This document shows, one piece after another, positions 11,648-21,678 of a stretch of DNA of 48,247 bases (its first letter is position 1; each line of letters opens with the position of its first letter). A program made the translations under genes and the position numbers. The stretch is from NCBI GenBank assembly GCA_001871325.1, contig MNVA01000019.1, positions 1 to 48,247 on the forward strand, given 5' to 3'. The DNA comes from Ignavibacteria bacterium CG1_02_37_35 (GTDB lineage: Bacteria > Bacteroidota > Ignavibacteria > Ignavibacteriales > Ignavibacteriaceae). Below the pieces are notes generated by a model. It saw only the letters and a program-made list of their open reading frames with translations, had not been told where the DNA came from and did no database searches.

Positions 11648-12334
11648 TTACCCGCGCAAAGCCGAAGTAAGCATTTCTTCTATACCACCAAAACGAAGTT
11701 CATAATCTTCCTGGCTTCTCTTAATCACTTCGTACGCTGTTTCCACATCATAAACTTCATCTATTTCACAATGTTTATGGTGTTCATCGCCGGGAACATC
11801 TTTGTAAGTTAAAAAATAATGGCGCAAGCGATCAATCACATTTGGGGGAACATCTCTCACACTTTTCATTTGACCATAAACAGCGTCGCCTTTCATTACG
11901 GCGATAATTTTATCATCAGCCTCATTGCCGTCTATCATACGTAAACCGCCGATTGGAATTACTTCCAGCAAGATACCTCCCTGCGTAATAGTTTTTTCCG
12001 TAAGCACGCAAATATCCAACGGATCACCATCTCCGACAATACTTTTTTTGCCGGTTTTTTCAGTACTTAATTCCGCAACTTTTTCTGCGCAGTACGTTTG
12101 GGGAACCAATCCGTAAAGCGTTGGACAAAAATTTGAATATCGTTGAGGTCTATCAACCTTCAAATAACCGGATTGTTTATCTATTTCATATTTCATCGAA
12201 TCAGTCGGAACAATTTCAATATAAACAGTAAGTTGGTACGGAACGTTGTCTCCGGGGGATATTCCGTGCCATGGATGCGGTTTAAACAGCAAGCCCATCA
12301 TTTTCCAAATTGGATCATTTTTCGGTGGTTTCAC
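11648..12334 (-). CDS. ppa: Inorganic pyrophosphatase
   Basis: VGDGDPLDICVLTE (family I PPase signature), HPWHGISPG. Confidence 0.93.
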   Translation of the reverse strand: MKPPKNDPIWKMMGLLFKPHPWHGISPGDNVPYQLTVYIEIVPTDSMKYEIDKQSGYLKVDRPQRYSNFCPTLYGLVPQTYCAEKVAELSTEKTGKKSIVGDGDPLDICVLTEKTITQGGILLEVIPIGGLRMIDGNEADDKIIAVMKGDAVYGQMKSVRDVPPNVIDRLRHYFLTYKDVPGDEHHKHCEIDEVYDVETAYEVIKRSQEDYELRFGGIEEMLTSALRG

Positions 12335-12379
12335 ATTGATTCCTTTTTTCTTTCCGTAAAAATAAGGAATAGTTTGCTG

Positions 12380-12407
12380 TTGAAAGAAAATCTTTTTGTT
12401 AATTTTG
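12380..12407 (+). promoter_or_regulatory. Candidate Bacteroidota-type promoter for rluE-like gene
   Basis: TTG-N17-TAATTTTG (TAnnTTTG) 25 nt upstream of the ATG at 12432. Confidence 0.5.
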
Positions 12408-12431
12408 ACGCAGTAAAAAGAAAAAAGTCAG

Positions 12432-13010
12432 ATGAAAAAATCTTTTAAATATTTTGTCGCACATAAACCCTTCAGAGTGCTGACTCAATTTACGGACGCA
12501 GTTGGAAGGAAAACGCTCACCGATCTTTTTACTTTTCCGAAAGATGTTTACCCGGTCGGAAGACTTGATTATGATAGCGAAGGACTTCTTCTTCTAACAA
12601 ATGACAAAGCGCTTACCGATAAACTGCTGCATCCAAAGCATAAATTAGAAAAAGAATATTTTGTCCAAGTTGAAGGAACACCAACAGAAGCCGCATTAAC
12701 AGAGCTTCGGGGCGGTGTCCTTATCGAAAATAAAAAGACGCTTCCGGCGAAAGTTATAATTTTAAATAAACCGCCGCAATTTGAAGAGAGAATACCTCCT
12801 ATTCGTTTTCGAAAAACAATTCCAACAACCTGGCTTGGCATTACGATAATTGAAGGACGAAACAGGCAGGTGCGGAAGATGACCGCTAAAGTTGGTTATC
12901 CAACATTACGGTTGGTGAGAATACGAATCGGCAATATCCATTTGGGAAATTTGAGACCGGGTAAAGTTAGAGAAATTAACTTTTCGGAAATTAAGTTATG
13001 GTTAATTTAA
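12432..13010 (+). CDS. rluE: 23S rRNA pseudouridine synthase, RluE/RsuA family
   Basis: VGRLDYDSEGLLLLTND catalytic motif; EGRNRQVRKM; short form lacking S4 domain. Confidence 0.85.
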   Translation: MKKSFKYFVAHKPFRVLTQFTDAVGRKTLTDLFTFPKDVYPVGRLDYDSEGLLLLTNDKALTDKLLHPKHKLEKEYFVQVEGTPTEAALTELRGGVLIENKKTLPAKVIILNKPPQFEERIPPIRFRKTIPTTWLGITIIEGRNRQVRKMTAKVGYPTLRLVRIRIGNIHLGNLRPGKVREINFSEIKLWLI

Positions 13011-13104
13011 AGCAACATTGCCGGTTATAGTAAATCGCTTTTCTTCAATACATTCGTTTCATTCAATTGTAATTTTTTATATTACTAATAAAAAAAATAA
13101 TATT

Positions 13105-15630
13105 ATGCCTAACCAAGAACAAAAATTTTTAACCGCCCTAAAAGATATTTTTATTGGGGCTAAAATTGAAGGTCAATCCGGTTATGTAAATCTAATGCAC
13201 ATTAAGGGGAAATACTTTGAAGGCATTTTCCCCATTTTAATCCAAGATATTAACGTAAAACTCTCCGGCTTCCCTGATTTCCGCGAAGAAATGTTTGAAA
13301 AACTTTACTTCTTCTTTTCTCGTTACTTTAATCAAACCGGAAGTATCTACTTCAATTATACCCCGCTTTATCAAAACATTTATGATAAAGTTTACGATCC
13401 CAACCGCGATGTTATTCTCTTCTGGAAAACTCACATGCTTTACTATGTTAAAAGTGAAGCAATTTACAAATCAATGAAGATTGAGATTGATGGCTTAAAC
13501 TTTTTCTTTGATGCTTCCCAAATTGAAAACAAAAAAAATAATGAACGACGCAATCTGATTTTTGAGTTCAATAAAGTTGGCGGGATAGACAAAAAAGTTG
13601 CGCTGATATTTAATGTTAATTATTCCAAAAACGGCAGAGTAACTAAGATTGATGAAATTCTCAAAGCTCTCAAAAAAGAAGATTTTAAAAACGTAACCGA
13701 AGAAATTCTTGAACAATCATTCTCCATTTTCAAAAAACAATCCGAAGTTGATTTCTTTATTAACAAAAATGCTAAAGAGTTTCTTAAAGAACAGTTCGAT
13801 CTTTTTCTTTACCAGTATATGTTCAAGGAGGTGAACCAGTTTGACGAAAAGAGAATTAAAGAACTGCAATCCCTTAAAGAAATTGCCTACAACATAATTT
13901 CATTTATTTCTCAGTTCGAAGATGAGCTTGTTAAAATTTGGAACAAACCCAAATTTCCTCTTAACAGCAATTATGTAATTACGCTTGACCGGCTGCCAAA
14001 AGAACTTGTCGAAAAACTTATTAAGCATCCCGGTATAAAAGAACAAATTGCCGAATGGAAAGAACTTGGACTTGTTAAAGATATTTTTAAACCGAAAGAT
14101 ATTATTGCGGTTCAAACTTCCCTCGACGGAAAAGAGTTTCTTAAAAAAGAATGCAGATTCCTTCCGGTTGATACTAAATATTTCAAAGACCTTGAACTTG
14201 AAATTCTTTCTTTGTTCGATAATCTCGATGATTCTTTGGACGGCACTTTAATTCATTCGGAAAATTACCAGGCGCTTAATACACTTAAAAGAAAATATAG
14301 AGGCGCTGTAAAAACTATTTATATTGACCCGCCTTTTAATCTTGATAGCAGCGACCAATTTCTTTACCGTACCAATTATAAAGACGCAAATTGGGCTACT
14401 CTTCTCGAAAATAGAATTAGTATCGCCAAAGATTTTCTAAGTGAAGACGGAAGCATTTTTGTCCGGTGCGATTATAATGGGAATTATATTGTTCGGTTTT
14501 TATTGGATACAATTCTGGGCAAAGAAAATTTTAGAAACGAAATCGTTTTACGCCGTGCGGAAGAAACGAAGGGCGACTTAAATAAACAATTTCGTGATAT
14601 GAAATCGATGACTGTTAATTATGATAACATTTATTGGTATTCGAATAACTTTTTCACTCGTTTTACAAAAATCATTAAACCGACTACAGATAATCAGAAA
14701 GCTGCTCATTGGCACAGTTTCTGGAAAAGTTTTGACAGAAAAAATATGCGTTATGAGATTCAAGGCGTGTCTTTAGAAAAAGGTCAGTGGATGTGGGAAA
14801 GAAACCGGGCATCTACTGCAATTGAAAACTACAAAGAATATCTCAAGGTTTCTAAAACAACAAATGAAACGTTAGAAGAATATTGGTTAAGGGATGGCGC
14901 AAATCGTGAGTTTATAAAAAAAGAAGGCGACGGAATTTCCTCAATTAAATATTGGATACCACCTCGTGAGTTTGTATTGGCTGATACAAATTGGCTTGAT
15001 ATAAAAGGATATTCAAATACCACTGATTTCAAAACTGAAAACTCCGAACTGTTATTAAAAAGAATATTCTCTAATATTAATCAAGAAGGTAACCTTGTTT
15101 TTGATTTTTTTATGGGCAGTTCTACAACACAAGCGGTTGCTCAAAAACTCGGTCGTAAATGGCTCGGCGTGGAAATGGGAGAACACTTTTTTACGGTTGT
15201 TCTTCCAAGAATGAAAAAAGTAATTGCCGGCGTTCAATCCAGTATTTCAAAAGAAACAGATTATAAAGGCGGCGGTTTCTTCAAATATTATTCCCTTGAA
15301 CAATATGAAGACACACTTCAAAAAGTATCTTACAAAGAAGATGCACTGCTCATCTTTAACGAAAACAAAACTCCGTACGAGCAATACATTTTTATGCGTG
15401 ATGATAAACTTACAGACAAAGCGGTAAAGATCAACGCAAAAGATAAAACAGTACAAGTAACGCTCAACAAACTTTACCCCAATATTGATGCTGCGGAAAC
15501 TCTCTCGTTAATAACCGGCAAAAAGATAAAAAAAATAACCGAAGAAGAAGTTGAATTTAATGACGGCTCGAAAGAAAGTTTAACCAATCCAAATTATCAT
15601 CTCTTCAAAGAATTTATTTGGTGGCAATAA
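13105..15630 (+). CDS. Site-specific DNA methyltransferase, type III Mod-like, with long N-terminal extension
   Basis: TIYIDPPFNLDSSDQFLYRTNYKDANWATLLENRI (motif IV) followed later by VFDFFMGSSTTQAVAQKLGRKWLGVEMG (motif I), the beta-class order. Start set at ATG 13105 (residue 30 of the track ORF). Confidence 0.88.
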   Translation: MPNQEQKFLTALKDIFIGAKIEGQSGYVNLMHIKGKYFEGIFPILIQDINVKLSGFPDFREEMFEKLYFFFSRYFNQTGSIYFNYTPLYQNIYDKVYDPNRDVILFWKTHMLYYVKSEAIYKSMKIEIDGLNFFFDASQIENKKNNERRNLIFEFNKVGGIDKKVALIFNVNYSKNGRVTKIDEILKALKKEDFKNVTEEILEQSFSIFKKQSEVDFFINKNAKEFLKEQFDLFLYQYMFKEVNQFDEKRIKELQSLKEIAYNIISFISQFEDELVKIWNKPKFPLNSNYVITLDRLPKELVEKLIKHPGIKEQIAEWKELGLVKDIFKPKDIIAVQTSLDGKEFLKKECRFLPVDTKYFKDLELEILSLFDNLDDSLDGTLIHSENYQALNTLKRKYRGAVKTIYIDPPFNLDSSDQFLYRTNYKDANWATLLENRISIAKDFLSEDGSIFVRCDYNGNYIVRFLLDTILGKENFRNEIVLRRAEETKGDLNKQFRDMKSMTVNYDNIYWYSNNFFTRFTKIIKPTTDNQKAAHWHSFWKSFDRKNMRYEIQGVSLEKGQWMWERNRASTAIENYKEYLKVSKTTNETLEEYWLRDGANREFIKKEGDGISSIKYWIPPREFVLADTNWLDIKGYSNTTDFKTENSELLLKRIFSNINQEGNLVFDFFMGSSTTQAVAQKLGRKWLGVEMGEHFFTVVLPRMKKVIAGVQSSISKETDYKGGGFFKYYSLEQYEDTLQKVSYKEDALLIFNENKTPYEQYIFMRDDKLTDKAVKINAKDKTVQVTLNKLYPNIDAAETLSLITGKKIKKITEEEVEFNDGSKESLTNPNYHLFKEFIWWQ

Positions 15631-15666
15631 TGCAAAAGAAAAAAAATCTGAATTTGAGGGTGTTCA

Positions 15667-16707
15667 ATGAAATCTTTTGAAAATGATTATTTTTTGGACC
15701 AGCCCGTTTCTCAAAAGTTACTTATTGCCGTAAGAATGCTTGGAGAATTTAAAGGGAAAGAATCTTTGTTCAGAGATCAATTCCCCGAAGTTCTTAAAAC
15801 CTTGCAGCAAACAGCCATTATTCAAAGCACGGAATCGAGTAATCGTATCGAAGGTATCTTTGTGCCTGAAAAAAGAATCCGCTTAATCGTTGCACAAAAC
15901 GTAAAACCGCTAAACAGACCCGAAGAAGAAGTTGCCGGTTATAAAGATATTTTGAATGATATTCATACCAATGCAAGTAAAAATAAACTTACTCCTAATC
16001 TAATTCTGAAATGGATTAAACAGCTTTACCGCTATACACCCGAAAAAGTTGTTGGCTTTAAAACCTTGGACAATGCCATTCTGGAAATTCTTCCTATTGG
16101 AAAAACGGTTATTCGGTTTCGTCCTGTCTCTGCAAAAAATACTCCTAAAGCAGTTCAGAAACTTTGCGATTCGTTTAATAAAAGCATCGCGCAAAATAAA
16201 GTTGAACCTCTACTTGCTGTCGCTTCTTTTGTTCTTGATTTTGAATGTATCCATCCTTTCAAAGACGGCAACGGCAGGATCGGTCGTCTTCTAACTCTTC
16301 TTCTTTTATATCATATCGGTTATGAAGTCGGTCGCTTCATTTCAATCGAAAGAATTATCGAAGAAAGCAAAGAAGCATATTACGACGCTCTTTATAAGAG
16401 TTCTCAAAAATGGCACGAAGGTGAACACGATCTTATTCCCTGGTGGAACTACTTTCTCTCTACTCTAATTGCGGCTTATAAAGAATTTGAACAACGCGTC
16501 GGTAAAATTACCACAGCAAAAGGGGCAAAAAGAGAAATGGTTTTTGCCGCTATTGAAAATCTGCCGGATGAATTTTCTTTCTCCGATCTTTTGCGCGCTT
16601 GTCCCGGTATTAGTTATGCTACTCTTAAACGCGGTTTACACGAATTAAAAATGAAACAAGTAATTAAAACGGTTGGCAAAGGGAGAGATGCCAAATATCG
16701 TAAATAG
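15667..16707 (+). CDS. Fic family protein (AMP-transferase-like) with N-terminal inhibitory motif and C-terminal winged-helix-like region
   Basis: Complete Fic motif HPFKDGNGRIGR; SNRIEG matches (S/T)xxxE(G/N); C-term FSFSDLLRACPGISYATLKRGLHELKMKQVIKTVGKGRDAKYR. Confidence 0.93.
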   Translation: MKSFENDYFLDQPVSQKLLIAVRMLGEFKGKESLFRDQFPEVLKTLQQTAIIQSTESSNRIEGIFVPEKRIRLIVAQNVKPLNRPEEEVAGYKDILNDIHTNASKNKLTPNLILKWIKQLYRYTPEKVVGFKTLDNAILEILPIGKTVIRFRPVSAKNTPKAVQKLCDSFNKSIAQNKVEPLLAVASFVLDFECIHPFKDGNGRIGRLLTLLLLYHIGYEVGRFISIERIIEESKEAYYDALYKSSQKWHEGEHDLIPWWNYFLSTLIAAYKEFEQRVGKITTAKGAKREMVFAAIENLPDEFSFSDLLRACPGISYATLKRGLHELKMKQVIKTVGKGRDAKYRK

Positions 16708-16721
16708 TATCACGAGCCTAT

Positions 16722-16756
16722 TAATTAGCTCACATGTCGCTTATATGAGCCAATTA
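16722..16756. repeat. Inverted repeat in Fic-Res intergenic region
   Basis: TAATTAGCTCA (16722-16732) / TGAGCCAATTA (16746-16756), 11 positions with one mismatch, 13-nt spacer. Confidence 0.6.
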
Positions 16757-16845
16757 GAGTATGTCAACCTCTCTTCCATACGGTTTAATAAACGGTGAAA
16801 ATTAATGAAAATATTATTTTACTTATGAAATTACAGCGGTAATAA

Positions 16846-19764
16846 ATGCCATCACTTATTCTTGAAGAAATAATATCAGCGCGAAAAATTGAAGACCTCC
16901 CTTTGTCCTGGTCTGAATTTAATTTCTCAACTTTCTCGGCTTCAAAGACTTTATACGATTATCAAATAAAATCTTTGCAGAACACCGTAAAACTCCTGCA
17001 TCTTTATTATGAAGAAGCTAAAGATTTTTCAATTTCTGAAAATCCGGCTGGTAATTTTTTACGCAAAGAATATCTGCTTAACCTTTTTAACGCTAACGAA
17101 TTTAGGGAAGATAATTTTTCTATCTCTCCGCAAAACAAAGACCTCTACACTGTTTTTTCAAATTATTACACGGTAGAGAACGGCCAAATCCTCTTTCGTA
17201 ATTTTATAAATCGCTGCTCTTTTTGGATGGCTACCGGTTCCGGTAAAAGTTTGTTGATTGTAAAAGTTATAGAACTGTTAAGCTCCCTTATCACTCTTAA
17301 CGAAATTCCCGATAACAATATTCTTATTCTTGCCCCGCGTGAAGATTTGCTTGAGCAGATTAAAAAACTGATAGACGAATACAATTCAGCAAGTTCAAAC
17401 CGGCGGATCAATCTCTATAGTATTAAAGATTACGAAAGAATAAAAAACGAAAAATTCTCTTTCTCCGATGAAATTTCTGTTTTCTACTATCGTTCAGATA
17501 ATTTTACCGATGAACAAAAAGATGTGCAAATAGACTATAAAAACTATGATAATAATGGTAACTGGTATATTCTTTTAGATGAAGCTCATAAAGGCGGTAA
17601 GGAAGATTCTAAACGACAATCTTACTTTAGCATTCTTTCAAGAAATGGATTCCTATTTAATTTCTCTGCTACCTTTACTGATAATTGGGATTTAGTAACA
17701 ACAGTTTTTAATTTCAATCTGGAAAAGTTTATTACAGATGGCTACGGAAAACATTTATATGTAAGCGGTGAAGAATATATATCCTTCAGTGCAAAAACCG
17801 ACGACGATTTTTCACAAGAAGAAAAAGAAAAGATTGTTATAAAATCACTTCTTACACTGGCATTCAGTAAAGATTACTCCAAAAAAGTTTATCTCAAAGA
17901 AAAGTCTGCTTATCATTCTCCTTTAATGTTAACGCTTGTAAACTCTGTAAATACGGAAGAATCCGATCTCCTTGTTTTTTTTAATGTGCTTGTAAAATTT
18001 GCCTGTGGTAAAATCAATAGTTCTCTTTTCCACCAAGCCAAAGATGAACTTATTAAAGAGCTAAAAAATCATAAAGAATACATCTTCGAAAACGAACCCC
18101 ACGCCTTACCCCTATCATTCTTTGCTGCCGTTGAACGTGAACATATTCTTAAATCTGTTTTTAATTCTGATAGATTTGGCGAAATTGAAGTAACCACTAA
18201 CGCAAACACTAAAGAACTTGCATTCAAACTCAAAGAATCCGATACGCCTTTTGCTCTTATCAAAATCGGCGATATTTCCGGTTGGATTAAAAATAAACTT
18301 AGCGGTTATGAGTTTACTAAAACCTATGATGACGATAGCTACTTCAGAAAACTAAATGATAATCCGCATATTAATATTTTAATGGGTTCGCGTGCTTTTT
18401 ATGAAGGCTGGGATTCAAATCGTCCGAATGTCATTAACTACATTAATATTGGCACTTCAACAGACGCTCAAAAATTTATTCTTCAATCTCTCGGTCGTGG
18501 CGTTCGTATTTCTCCTTTACCCGGCAAAAGAAAACGACTAATTAAACTCCGCAATTCAAATTTAATCCAGCAATCGGATTTTGGAAATCTATTTGACTTT
18601 TCAAGTGTATTAGAAACTCTCTTCATTTTTGGAACAAATAAACTTGCTATCCGGAAAGTTGTCGAAGCAATCAAATCTGATAGCGATTCGGTTGTTGATC
18701 ATACAACCTTGAAACTATCTAAAAATGAATCCAACTGTGACTTATTAATTCCATGTTACGATATTAAATCTTCTCATTTTGATGATCTTCCTCCGTTCCA
18801 TATTGCGGCTTCTTCAAAAACAAGATTGAATAATTATCTTTCGTCGGTTAATGATAATGTCTTACTTTTCAGCACAAATGCTAAGGTAAATGATTTGTCT
18901 TTATTAAGATCATCTCTTTCATCCAATGCTATCCTGACTGAAGATGATTCAAAAAAATACTCTGATACAAATTCAATCATTAACCGGTTCTCATTTCATA
19001 TTAATTCCAAACGTAAATATTTAAGCGGCTTCAAAAAATTAGATGAAGAAATCATTCACTTTAGAAAAATTGCTGTCTCTAACGAATTCAAAAAGATTGC
19101 GGATTTAATAAAAACCATAAATGAAATAACATCGCCGCAAGCTCAAATAAGCAAAGAAAAGTTTCAAAAATCTGAAGAGCTGTTCAAGAAAGGGATAATC
19201 AGTGAGCCAATCTTTGATGCTATAAAAGAAAAAGCATCACTTAAATCAGAAATAGTTTTTGAAGAGCTAACTATCAGGCGTCTATACGAACATTACTACA
19301 TTCCGGTAATTACATCTGATGAAAAAATAAAATTTATAAAACACATAATCCAAAATCCCGGTGAAATCACATTCTTAAATGAATTAGATAAATATATTTC
19401 TGAAAATGCCTATGAGATAAAGAAAAAATATGATTGGTGGATGTTCAGCAAAATTGATGAATCATTAGACAATATTTATATCCCATACTTGGAAGCGGAT
19501 AAAGAAAGATCTTTTTTCCCGGACTTTATTTTTTGGTTAAAAAACGGGAATGCTTACAAAATTATCTTTGTTGATCCAAAAGGAACTGCCTATTCAGATT
19601 ACCAATTAAAAGTAGATGGTTTTGAAAAAATCTTTAACAAAAATCCTTACAGCTTTTTAGGATATAATATTCGCGTCTCTCTAAAATTATTTACTGAAAA
19701 CGTAACCACTCTCCCGCACCGTTACCGTGAGTTTTGGTTTAACAAGCCAAAGGAAATATTTTAA
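16846..19764 (+). CDS. Type III-like restriction enzyme Res subunit (SF2 helicase plus PD-(D/E)xK nuclease)
   Basis: WMATGSGKSLL (Walker A), LLDEAHKG (DEAH), FYEGWDSNRPNVINYINIGTSTDAQKFILQSLGRGVR (motifs V-VI), C-terminal FPDFIFWLKNGNAYKIIFVDPKG nuclease core. Confidence 0.9.
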   Translation: MPSLILEEIISARKIEDLPLSWSEFNFSTFSASKTLYDYQIKSLQNTVKLLHLYYEEAKDFSISENPAGNFLRKEYLLNLFNANEFREDNFSISPQNKDLYTVFSNYYTVENGQILFRNFINRCSFWMATGSGKSLLIVKVIELLSSLITLNEIPDNNILILAPREDLLEQIKKLIDEYNSASSNRRINLYSIKDYERIKNEKFSFSDEISVFYYRSDNFTDEQKDVQIDYKNYDNNGNWYILLDEAHKGGKEDSKRQSYFSILSRNGFLFNFSATFTDNWDLVTTVFNFNLEKFITDGYGKHLYVSGEEYISFSAKTDDDFSQEEKEKIVIKSLLTLAFSKDYSKKVYLKEKSAYHSPLMLTLVNSVNTEESDLLVFFNVLVKFACGKINSSLFHQAKDELIKELKNHKEYIFENEPHALPLSFFAAVEREHILKSVFNSDRFGEIEVTTNANTKELAFKLKESDTPFALIKIGDISGWIKNKLSGYEFTKTYDDDSYFRKLNDNPHINILMGSRAFYEGWDSNRPNVINYINIGTSTDAQKFILQSLGRGVRISPLPGKRKRLIKLRNSNLIQQSDFGNLFDFSSVLETLFIFGTNKLAIRKVVEAIKSDSDSVVDHTTLKLSKNESNCDLLIPCYDIKSSHFDDLPPFHIAASSKTRLNNYLSSVNDNVLLFSTNAKVNDLSLLRSSLSSNAILTEDDSKKYSDTNSIINRFSFHINSKRKYLSGFKKLDEEIIHFRKIAVSNEFKKIADLIKTINEITSPQAQISKEKFQKSEELFKKGIISEPIFDAIKEKASLKSEIVFEELTIRRLYEHYYIPVITSDEKIKFIKHIIQNPGEITFLNELDKYISENAYEIKKKYDWWMFSKIDESLDNIYIPYLEADKERSFFPDFIFWLKNGNAYKIIFVDPKGTAYSDYQLKVDGFEKIFNKNPYSFLGYNIRVSLKLFTENVTTLPHRYREFWFNKPKEIF

Positions 19765-19952
19765 CCGTAATAATGTGCAATAGAGTATTGGCGTTTAAGT
19801 TTTTGTTTTTATGTCAAGCTATTTGAAATGACTTTTACCAATAAGTAGTTTAAATGTTGATGATTAATTCTATCCATCCTTTTCGTCAAGCATTTTCCGG
19901 TAAATAAATAGAGCTACGCGATAATTATTCTGTGGGTCATTTCTTTTCTTAA

Positions 19953-20456
19953 TTATTTTTTCGTTAAAATCGCTGCTAAATCTTTTTCCAACGTTTCTTT
20001 CGGCGTTTCAACTATTCTGCCGATTTCCAACCCATCATTATAAATAATCATTGTGGGAACAAGTTCAATATTTAAAGATGCGATGTTTACCTCCGCCGCT
20101 TCTTTTTTTCTGTCCACCATGATCAGCTTTACTTTGGCAGAAGGGAAATTCAGCGAATCGAGAATTTTATAAAAACGCGGGACTTCCCTTCTGCTGTCGC
20201 TGCACCACGTTCCCATTACTATGGTTATTGAGTGAAACTCGTTATCCATTTTAACGTGGGAAAGCGTTTCTTTATCAAGTTCATAGTTTTCATATTCCGG
20301 ATTAAACCACCATGCAAATGAGGAATCTTGAATTGCTTCTCGACTGCAAATGCCAACCAACATCGGTTTGCCGGATTTTTGGTCTAGCACGCATTGGTTT
20401 GTTGTTTGTGCAAAAGTAACAAGTGAGAAAAAGAAAAGAATGAATAAATTTTTCAT
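19953..20456 (-). CDS. Secreted thioredoxin-fold protein (single-Cys WCSDSR motif)
   Basis: Signal peptide; ITIVMGTWCSDSRREVPRFYKILD and cis-Pro VPTMIIYNDG. Confidence 0.8.
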   Translation of the reverse strand: MKNLFILFFFSLVTFAQTTNQCVLDQKSGKPMLVGICSREAIQDSSFAWWFNPEYENYELDKETLSHVKMDNEFHSITIVMGTWCSDSRREVPRFYKILDSLNFPSAKVKLIMVDRKKEAAEVNIASLNIELVPTMIIYNDGLEIGRIVETPKETLEKDLAAILTKK

Positions 20457-20457
20457 C

Positions 20458-21351
20458 TTAAGATCCTTTTTGTTGATGACTATTTTTTCTAACGTCTAAT
20501 CCCCAAAGTAATTTTGACCGGAGGATCTTAAAGTAATTCGCAGAATCCATGTGCACTAACTTCAACGGTTTTTCACTTTTCGAAATTACAATTTCAAGCG
20601 GGGGCGGAAATTCCATTACGCGCTGACCATCGCAGTTTACTTGAACTTTTGTGTGCATTGAGTTAGCGGTAATAAAAATTTTTTCATTACTCGGCAGCAC
20701 TAAAGGGCGCATGGTTAAACTATGGGGCGAGATAGGACTAAGCGCTATCACTTCAGCTTTCGGACTTACAATCGGTCCGCCAACGGAGAGCGAATACCCG
20801 GTAGATCCGGTCGGGGTAGCAACGATTAAACCGTCTGCCGAAAAAGTTGTAACGTATTCATCTTCAACAGAAATTGTAAGCTCAATCATTTTAGGCCATG
20901 CGCCTTTATCAATAACCAAATCATTCACCGCAAAAAAATCGTCACAATCATTAGTGGAACATTTACCTACCAACACCATTCTTTCTTCAACCGAATAGCG
21001 AGAATTTTTTATGTCGTTAAAAAGCTGCTCAATCCCCTTGATATCAACTTCGGCTAAGAAACCAAGCTTTCCGAGATTAATTCCGAGAATGGGTTTATTA
21101 ACTTGATGTGCGATATATGCGGTTGTAAGCATTGTGCCGTCTCCGCCAAGCGAAATTAAGATGTCACAACTTTCTGCGACCTTTTTAGCGGAAGCAAAAT
21201 AATCAGGTTGAACCAATGCAAGGGGAAACGATCTTCGCAACGAATCGTTAATAAGAAATTCATACTTGTTTAATTTTAGCTGTTCAACTATGATTTGTAA
21301 AGTAGCTGTAAGCTCGTCTTTGGTTGTATTGCCGAATATTCCAAATTTCAT
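20458..21351 (-). CDS. nadK: NAD kinase
   Basis: SLGGDGTMLTTAY, GINLGKLGFLAEV, TPTGSTGYSLSVGGPI. Confidence 0.95.
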   Translation of the reverse strand: MKFGIFGNTTKDELTATLQIIVEQLKLNKYEFLINDSLRRSFPLALVQPDYFASAKKVAESCDILISLGGDGTMLTTAYIAHQVNKPILGINLGKLGFLAEVDIKGIEQLFNDIKNSRYSVEERMVLVGKCSTNDCDDFFAVNDLVIDKGAWPKMIELTISVEDEYVTTFSADGLIVATPTGSTGYSLSVGGPIVSPKAEVIALSPISPHSLTMRPLVLPSNEKIFITANSMHTKVQVNCDGQRVMEFPPPLEIVISKSEKPLKLVHMDSANYFKILRSKLLWGLDVRKNSHQQKGS

Positions 21352-21678
21352 TTATGCTTCCGGCGGTGTTTCTTCTGCAGTTGCAGCCTCGGGCGGAGTT
21401 GGTTCTTCTTTTGTATCTTTCCCGACTTCTTCAACATAATTCAATTTTAATTCGCGTAAAACTTCATTAATAAATTTATCTTCATACTCGCCAAGGTTCC
21501 CCTTCGTTTTTGCAGCCAGCATGTCGAGCGTATCAATCGCATATTTTGACATCTCTAGATTCCGTTCAATTTTGTCGCTCATAGGATTTTTTAATTTTCC
21601 CATGGACATCATCGCCCATTGCTGCTGCTGCATGATTAATTGCATAAAGAGGACTTCGTAATTCGTTTTTTCAGCCAT
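21352..21678 (-). CDS. DUF1844-like protein
   Basis: YEVLFMQLIMQQQQWAMMSMGKL...AKYAIDTLDMLAAKTKGNL pattern; directly abuts nadK. Confidence 0.75.
   Translation of the reverse strand: MAEKTNYEVLFMQLIMQQQQWAMMSMGKLKNPMSDKIERNLEMSKYAIDTLDMLAAKTKGNLGEYEDKFINEVLRELKLNYVEEVGKDTKEEPTPPEAATAEETPPEA

Follow-up and report, generated by a model that had tools for sequence, protein, structure and literature searches.

A Fic gene occupies an exchangeable gene slot in a type III-like restriction-modification operon of an Ignavibacteria genome

The DNA analysed here, referred to as the window, is a stretch of 48,247 nucleotides. At positions 13105-19764 its forward strand carries a type III-like mod gene, an intact Fic gene and a res gene, all three with open frames; 36 nt separate mod from fic and 138 nt separate fic from res. 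An earlier note, made from the sequence alone, had described three same-strand genes of these families, and both the families and the motifs were confirmed by family searches and motif positions. The features are as follows.

12981..19946, + strand: island of ~6.97 kb containing mod, fic and res only, whose flanks adjoin each other in the same-genus genome G1042
13105..15630, + strand: mod, 841 aa, type III-like beta-class DNA methyltransferase
15630..15680, + strand: 16-codon leader ORF, its ATG overlapping the mod stop (TAATG), extending over the fic start (direct reading)
15642..16797, + strand: variable cargo slot, without homology to the closest relatives, which match on both sides
15667..16707, + strand: fic, 346 aa, class II Fic protein (PF02661, 58.7 bits, cut-off 24)
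15838-15855, + strand: N-terminal inhibitory motif SNRIEG of Fic (aa 58-63)
16252-16287, + strand: intact catalytic motif HPFKDGNGRIGR of Fic (aa 196-207)
16846..19764, + strand: res, 972 aa, SF2 helicase-nuclease (PF04851, E=5.2e-17)
17230-17250, + strand: Walker A motif ATGSGKS of Res (aa 129)
17575-17595, + strand: DEAH region LDEAHKG of Res (aa 244)
Res aa 273, + strand: motif FSATF
Res aa 547, + strand: motif VI, QSLGRGVR
19519-19584, + strand: nuclease motif PDFIFW...VDPKG (PD...DPK) of Res (aa 892)

Mod matched PF01555 (E=2.6e-29) and the PADLOC profile MTase_III (PDLC03638, E=3.5e-255, 847 bits). Motif IV (DPPF, aa 408-411, nt 14326-14337) is followed by a variable region and then by motif I (DFFMGSSTT, aa 667-675, nt 15103-15129), which is the beta-class order of a type III Mod. 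The family profile matched the solved Mod structures 6k0w, 7dsu and 4zcf, the last being the EcoP15I Mod, and the AlphaFold model of the window protein reached a pLDDT of 72 and a pTM of 0.69. Motif I reads GSS in the window, GSG in most relatives and GSA in the nearest two (L043 and L044); the serine variant may be a lineage-specific change in the AdoMet-binding loop. The first ~370 aa (window 13105-14220) gave no Pfam match; this N-terminal part is conserved among bacterial and archaeal family members alike.

Res combines SF2 helicase motifs with a C-terminal nuclease of the PD-(D/E)xK type, as is characteristic of type III Res subunits. Four of the five motifs were found in 51-54 of the 55 family members tested and motif VI, with the pattern used, in 24; the nuclease residues P892, D893, D910 and P911 are invariant in the family alignment. 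Searches of Res against the PADLOC profiles and, by sequence, against solved structures gave no match, and its AlphaFold model reached a pLDDT of 71 and a pTM of 0.53. Type III enzymes cut DNA in an ATP-dependent manner at head-to-head sites and methylate a single strand, as m6A or, in one subgroup, as m4C. The Res C-terminus showed a weak match to the Bordetella BPTD_3080 restriction family. Methylation to m4C has been described for a type III subgroup, with a putative m4C system listed in Bordetella pertussis (PMC8259958). The weak match and this listing together make m4C instead of m6A worth considering for the window system.

The Fic protein has a Fic domain with an intact catalytic motif, which places it in the Fic/Doc superfamily, and it belongs to class II by the presence of an (S/T)xxxE(G/N) motif N-terminal to HxFxxGNGRxxR, here SNRIEG and HPFKDGNGRIGR. 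Both elements are widespread among its homologues: 64 of 69 carry the catalytic HPFxDGNGRxxR and 65 of 69 the inhibitory motif. The protein aligned almost end to end with PDB 8uqu_A (E=2.3e-92) and over its full length with the PADLOC SoFic profile (E=3.9e-39), which scored higher than PDC-S04 (best E=8.5e-17, 59.6 bits, aa 61-244; the PADLOC output shows no cut-off for it). Against the NCBIfam SoFic equivalog it reached 48.1 bits, far below the cut-off of 550, and we do not file it as SoFic. At the C-terminus, a weak winged-helix match (DIP2311-like_C, 22.8 bits) fell below the cut-off of 27. The protein is not a class I Fic toxin of the VbhTA or Phd-Doc kind, which have a separate antitoxin gene, since the inhibitory motif lies inside Fic itself and the only neighbours are mod and res. 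Direct reading of the 138-nt gap between fic and res revealed no AS1-like antitoxin gene, all ATG frames there being of at most 17 codons. The G+C content of fic (0.376) exceeds that of mod (0.338) and res (0.325). The TAATG overlap at the mod stop, from which the leader ORF starts, is present in L043 too, and this ORF could possibly couple the translation of mod and fic. Promoter and terminator scans gave counts no higher than in shuffled sequence, and we make no claim of an internal promoter.

On either side of the three genes lie, as the earlier note had it, a pseudouridine synthase gene and a thioredoxin-like gene (both from family searches), the latter followed by an NAD-kinase type gene recognised by inspection. 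In the same-genus genome G1042 (contig C56) the pseudouridine synthase (rlu) gene directly adjoins the thioredoxin gene, which corresponds to an empty site. Region L234 matches window positions 11648-12980 and 19947-21460, and 10 nt separate the two matches. With the flanks joined in G1042, the ~6.97 kb has therefore been gained or lost in the window genome, and the difference from the same-genus genome is a precise insertion. Neither a tRNA gene nor a flanking repeat marking the island was found, and no integrase-like gene was noticed. The DNA block common to the window and its nearest relative, L043, runs from the mod start to the res stop; a shared block with these limits indicates that the RM operon sits at other sites in other species. 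Elsewhere in the same genome, contig C118 (L041, 4019-11432) holds a second, different type III-like mod-res pair; genes that by eye look Schlafen/AlbA_2-like and HTH-ImmA-like stand ahead of it.

We then considered whether the order mod-fic-res is conserved, as the earlier note had proposed. An alignment of Mod was used to scan 85,462 species genomes, yielding 80 loci from bacteria and archaea; the slot counts below refer to the 64 with a Res found downstream, L034 having been added to the scan set. Mod and res are adjacent in 31 of the 64, and 33 have genes between them, one of these (L112) with doubtful reading frames only. No Fic catalytic motif was present in the mod-res gap of any of the 64 related loci. 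The note had itself named the absence of Fic from nearly all homologous loci as evidence against its proposal, and on these 64 loci a conserved mod-fic-res triad is rejected. Its statement that Fic is inserted between the Mod and Res subunits holds for the window genome, whereas many alternative cargoes take that place elsewhere. Fic proteins of other subfamilies stand beside mod in three loci, upstream on the same strand in L061 and L062 and on the opposite strand in L034.

The genes found in the gap are of defence or toxin-antitoxin types. Bro-N is the cargo in eight loci; other loci carry, among others, Schlafen/AlbA_2, RhuM, DUF6119, ImmA/IrrE-like (PADLOC RmrA) with DUF4411, GmrSD (HEC-06), MNT-HEPN, DUF3800, TIR-like, AAA_13 RloC-like ATPase, Ppl-like ATPase or AAA_14/DUF4143 genes. 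Cargoes other than Fic matched PADLOC PDC-S05, PDC-S06, PDC-S13 and HEC-06. Their arrangement is regular: of 51 ORFs in the slot that reach 100 aa or more, 50 share the strand of mod, and in 26 of 31 loci the start of the first cargo gene lies no more than 30 nt from the mod stop. Their identity is not: on a Mod tree, a quick one with SH-aLRT support only, cargo type required 32 changes against a shuffled mean of 32.1 and so carries no phylogenetic signal, Bro-N took 8 changes for its 8 rows, and the presence or absence of cargo took 16.

The closest relatives show the exchange at the level of DNA. L043 matches window 13104-15641 at 85% and 16798-19764 at 80%, while L044 matches 13114-15632 at 77% and resumes from 16854 at 72%; the interval 15642-16797 matches neither, and in its place L043 has a split Bro-N and L044 a RhuM gene. 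The mod-res gap serves as a slot in which many defence genes can replace one another, and Fic is one of many cargoes. Our literature search, whose limited coverage makes it weak evidence of absence, returned no publication that describes such a slot in type III systems.

Close Mod relatives were also found on two IMG/VR contigs, with mod and res adjacent in both, and on a few plasmids. A viral or plasmid vehicle for the island was considered and rejected; as noted above, no integrase-like gene, tRNA or flanking repeat was seen with it. Two plasmid regions were seen in passing: a Rhodothermus marinus plasmid (L165, 6995-14130) has the order mod, nucleotidyltransferase, hypothetical gene and helicase/res, and in the Athalassotoga plasmid pATS2 (L164, 8466-12750, the same locus as L055) the res gene of this family is split by an IS256-family transposase.

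The Fic lineage was followed in the same manner. Its three closest intact relatives in the phylum (48-52% identity) all lie in type I RM operons with the order hsdM-fic-hsdS, while in two other phylum samples most copies had no obvious defence neighbour within 1.5-kb flanks. Other copies in these samples do have one: in two genomes fic begins 4 nt after BrxC, NOV/HmaA-like helicases directly precede it in L209, L212 and L215 as well as in L210, which has a truncated start, and elsewhere it is followed by a type III mod, by hsdM or by a DUF1156 methyltransferase; in two genomes it adjoins cas4. Longer regions, in which HMM support covers the tested neighbours only and other genes were judged by eye, placed one Fic between brxC and further ATPase genes and another between a HerA/SIR2-like pair and hsdM. 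Close copies on plasmids stand alone among IS elements and toxin-antitoxin genes, and one close copy is on an IMG/VR contig. The Fic tree demands no fewer than 10 switches between embedded and other contexts; in it the embedded count of 15 of 68 is a lower bound and "solitary" means that no defence neighbour was recognised. This Fic lineage is a promiscuous embedded gene, found in at least five kinds of defence locus or alone.

Some single loci deserve mention for themselves. In L264 (9072-12213) a Fic relative lies between apparent cas7 and cas4 genes of a type I-C-like CRISPR-Cas locus, and in L227 one precedes a cas4-like gene. The closest homologue of all (~78% identity) is in a same-order genome (G047; L151 and L152), where only truncated pieces at contig ends are present.

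The reading we favour, to which we give a probability of about 0.6, is that the window holds a mobile type III-like RM operon with a cargo slot, in which a SoFic-like, self-inhibited Fic serves as an independent abortive-infection gene. Several observations argue for independent cargo: nearly equal numbers of loci with and without inserted genes, drawn from defence and toxin-antitoxin families; a turnover on the Mod tree like that of shuffled labels, with other cargo in the nearest relatives; co-directional genes placed close behind mod; the deviating G+C of fic; and the many contexts of a Fic lineage with conserved catalytic and inhibitory motifs. SoFic proteins have been reported to cause abortive infection via AMPylation (PMC12249575), and with intact catalytic and inhibitory motifs a self-restrained growth-arrest enzyme is the simplest mechanism. 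For the window locus we infer co-transcription, restriction activity, AMPylation, a trigger and abortive infection: fic would be transcribed together with the RM genes, and Fic would be held off by its own N-terminal inhibitory helix until infection or stress lifted the inhibition; the released enzyme would then AMPylate a host protein and growth would stop, forming a second layer behind DNA restriction. Judging from its sequence and contexts, Fic probably works independently of Mod and Res. Against this reading, 48 bits with a SoFic cut-off of 550 mean that the defence activity is carried over from a remote relative, and there is no AS1-like antitoxin gene downstream.

Co-orientation this strict and spacing this tight may also be signs of a true link to Mod and Res, and the earlier note had pictured Fic as a possible back-up toxin or regulator for the case that the RM branch is blocked. 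In a PrrC-like arrangement, Mod and Res would keep Fic inactive and an anti-restriction protein or DNA damage would free it; the position of fic within the operon beside mod fits this, as does the nearly constant placement of other cargo, and there are precedents in PrrC with its RM system and in the proposed RM-RloC-DOC loci (PMC3710099). Restraint by the RM enzyme is nevertheless not needed by a Fic that has its own inhibitory motif and whose lineage occurs alone or in at least five unrelated contexts, and the same Mod family is found with no cargo or with unrelated cargo; we regard such coupling as rather unlikely. A further reading is that the gap in this Mod family is a true plug-in site, where any effector placed behind mod would be tied to the RM complex in the same way, through co-translation or a sensor state that all of them share. 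Fic, Bro-N, RhuM, RmrA-like, TIR and RloC-like cargo would then be interchangeable outputs of one type III sensor; we consider this quite unlikely. The very rapid turnover, in turn, is also what a passenger or addiction gene would produce, with Fic stabilising a mobile RM island or merely riding on it and having no antiviral role. The toxin-antitoxin-like families among the cargo, the solitary plasmid copies beside IS elements and toxin-antitoxin genes, the degraded copies in G047 and the split Bro-N in L043 agree with this. Plain addiction, however, needs a separate antitoxin, of which there is none, and repeated embedding in several kinds of defence locus with conserved catalytic and inhibitory motifs speaks against mere riding, which leaves this option, too, improbable.

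A regulatory role would have the Fic-winged-helix protein bind the operon promoter or AMPylate Mod or Res and so tune restriction, for example on entry into a new host. The C-terminal winged-helix-like match is its starting point, but that match is sub-threshold, the lineage sits in operons with unrelated subunits, fic is the second gene of the operon and most operon relatives have no Fic; we hold this to be very unlikely. An assembly or binning artefact joining unrelated pieces might be suspected in an assembly of 242 contigs, yet the DNA of mod and res agrees with that of one relative along the same block, the slot alone being different, the junction with the empty site in the same genus is clean and all frames are intact, so that this possibility is close to negligible.

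The window locus thus adds one example to the known embedding of defence genes and is no novel system of three fixed parts. The broader view of the earlier note, an RM operon with a Fic-type growth-arrest gene in it, is supported, but a conserved role of Fic there is not. Nor are such combinations in general undescribed: a proposal from 2013 already treated RM loci containing DOC/Fic genes as layered defence (PMC3710099), and Payne et al. 2024 compiled genes embedded in defence systems under the name "guilt by embedding" (doi 10.1101/2024.01.29.577857), a catalogue taken here as later papers present it (PMC11411939, PMC12255303, PMC12988326). What is new is the quantified turnover of the slot and the range of contexts in which one Fic lineage is found. 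A single gene order becomes a countable natural experiment, with one RM chassis and at least 12 exchangeable cargo families. One Fic lineage in at least five kinds of defence locus allows embedded genes to be tested alone versus wired to the host system, a question left open in the guilt-by-embedding literature.

Compared with type III RM systems such as EcoP15I and EcoP1I, the window operon shares the mod-res order, the beta-class Mod and a Res with an SF2 helicase and a C-terminal PD...DPK nuclease. It differs in the ~370-aa N-terminal part of Mod without a Pfam match, in a Res without a match to a solved structure or PADLOC profile, and in that roughly half of its family has further genes separating mod from res. 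The Fic resembles SoFic in the inhibitory motif before the Fic core, the extra C-terminal domain and the full-length profile alignment; unlike SoFic, it scores below the family cut-off, lies inside an RM operon and has no AS1-like small gene behind it, such as the AS1-type antitoxin gene reported downstream of one E. coli SoFic. With PrrC/PrrI and the RM-RloC-DOC loci (PMC3710099) it has in common a toxin gene in or beside an RM operon, DOC/Fic included. PrrC, in contrast, is physically restrained by a type Ic enzyme, whereas the window Fic lineage is not bound to one RM type, and this promiscuity of context speaks against a PrrC-type dependence on the RM enzyme. TgvAB and DarTG2 (PMC11411939, PMC12255303) are likewise second defences between RM subunit genes, experimentally active ones, but their hosts are type I systems and the effectors differ; the tgvAB pair by itself still gave phage protection, though a weaker one than the complete cluster. 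A further parallel in gene arrangement is offered by the embedded candidates held in PADLOC as PDC families, which result from the catalogue of Payne et al. as cited by later papers, and several slot cargoes match these families. As in those candidates, a single defence-type gene stands between subunit genes, and the Fic is a possible match to one family (PDC-S04); in distinction to the catalogue as so cited, one type III Mod family is shown here as a slot with measured turnover.
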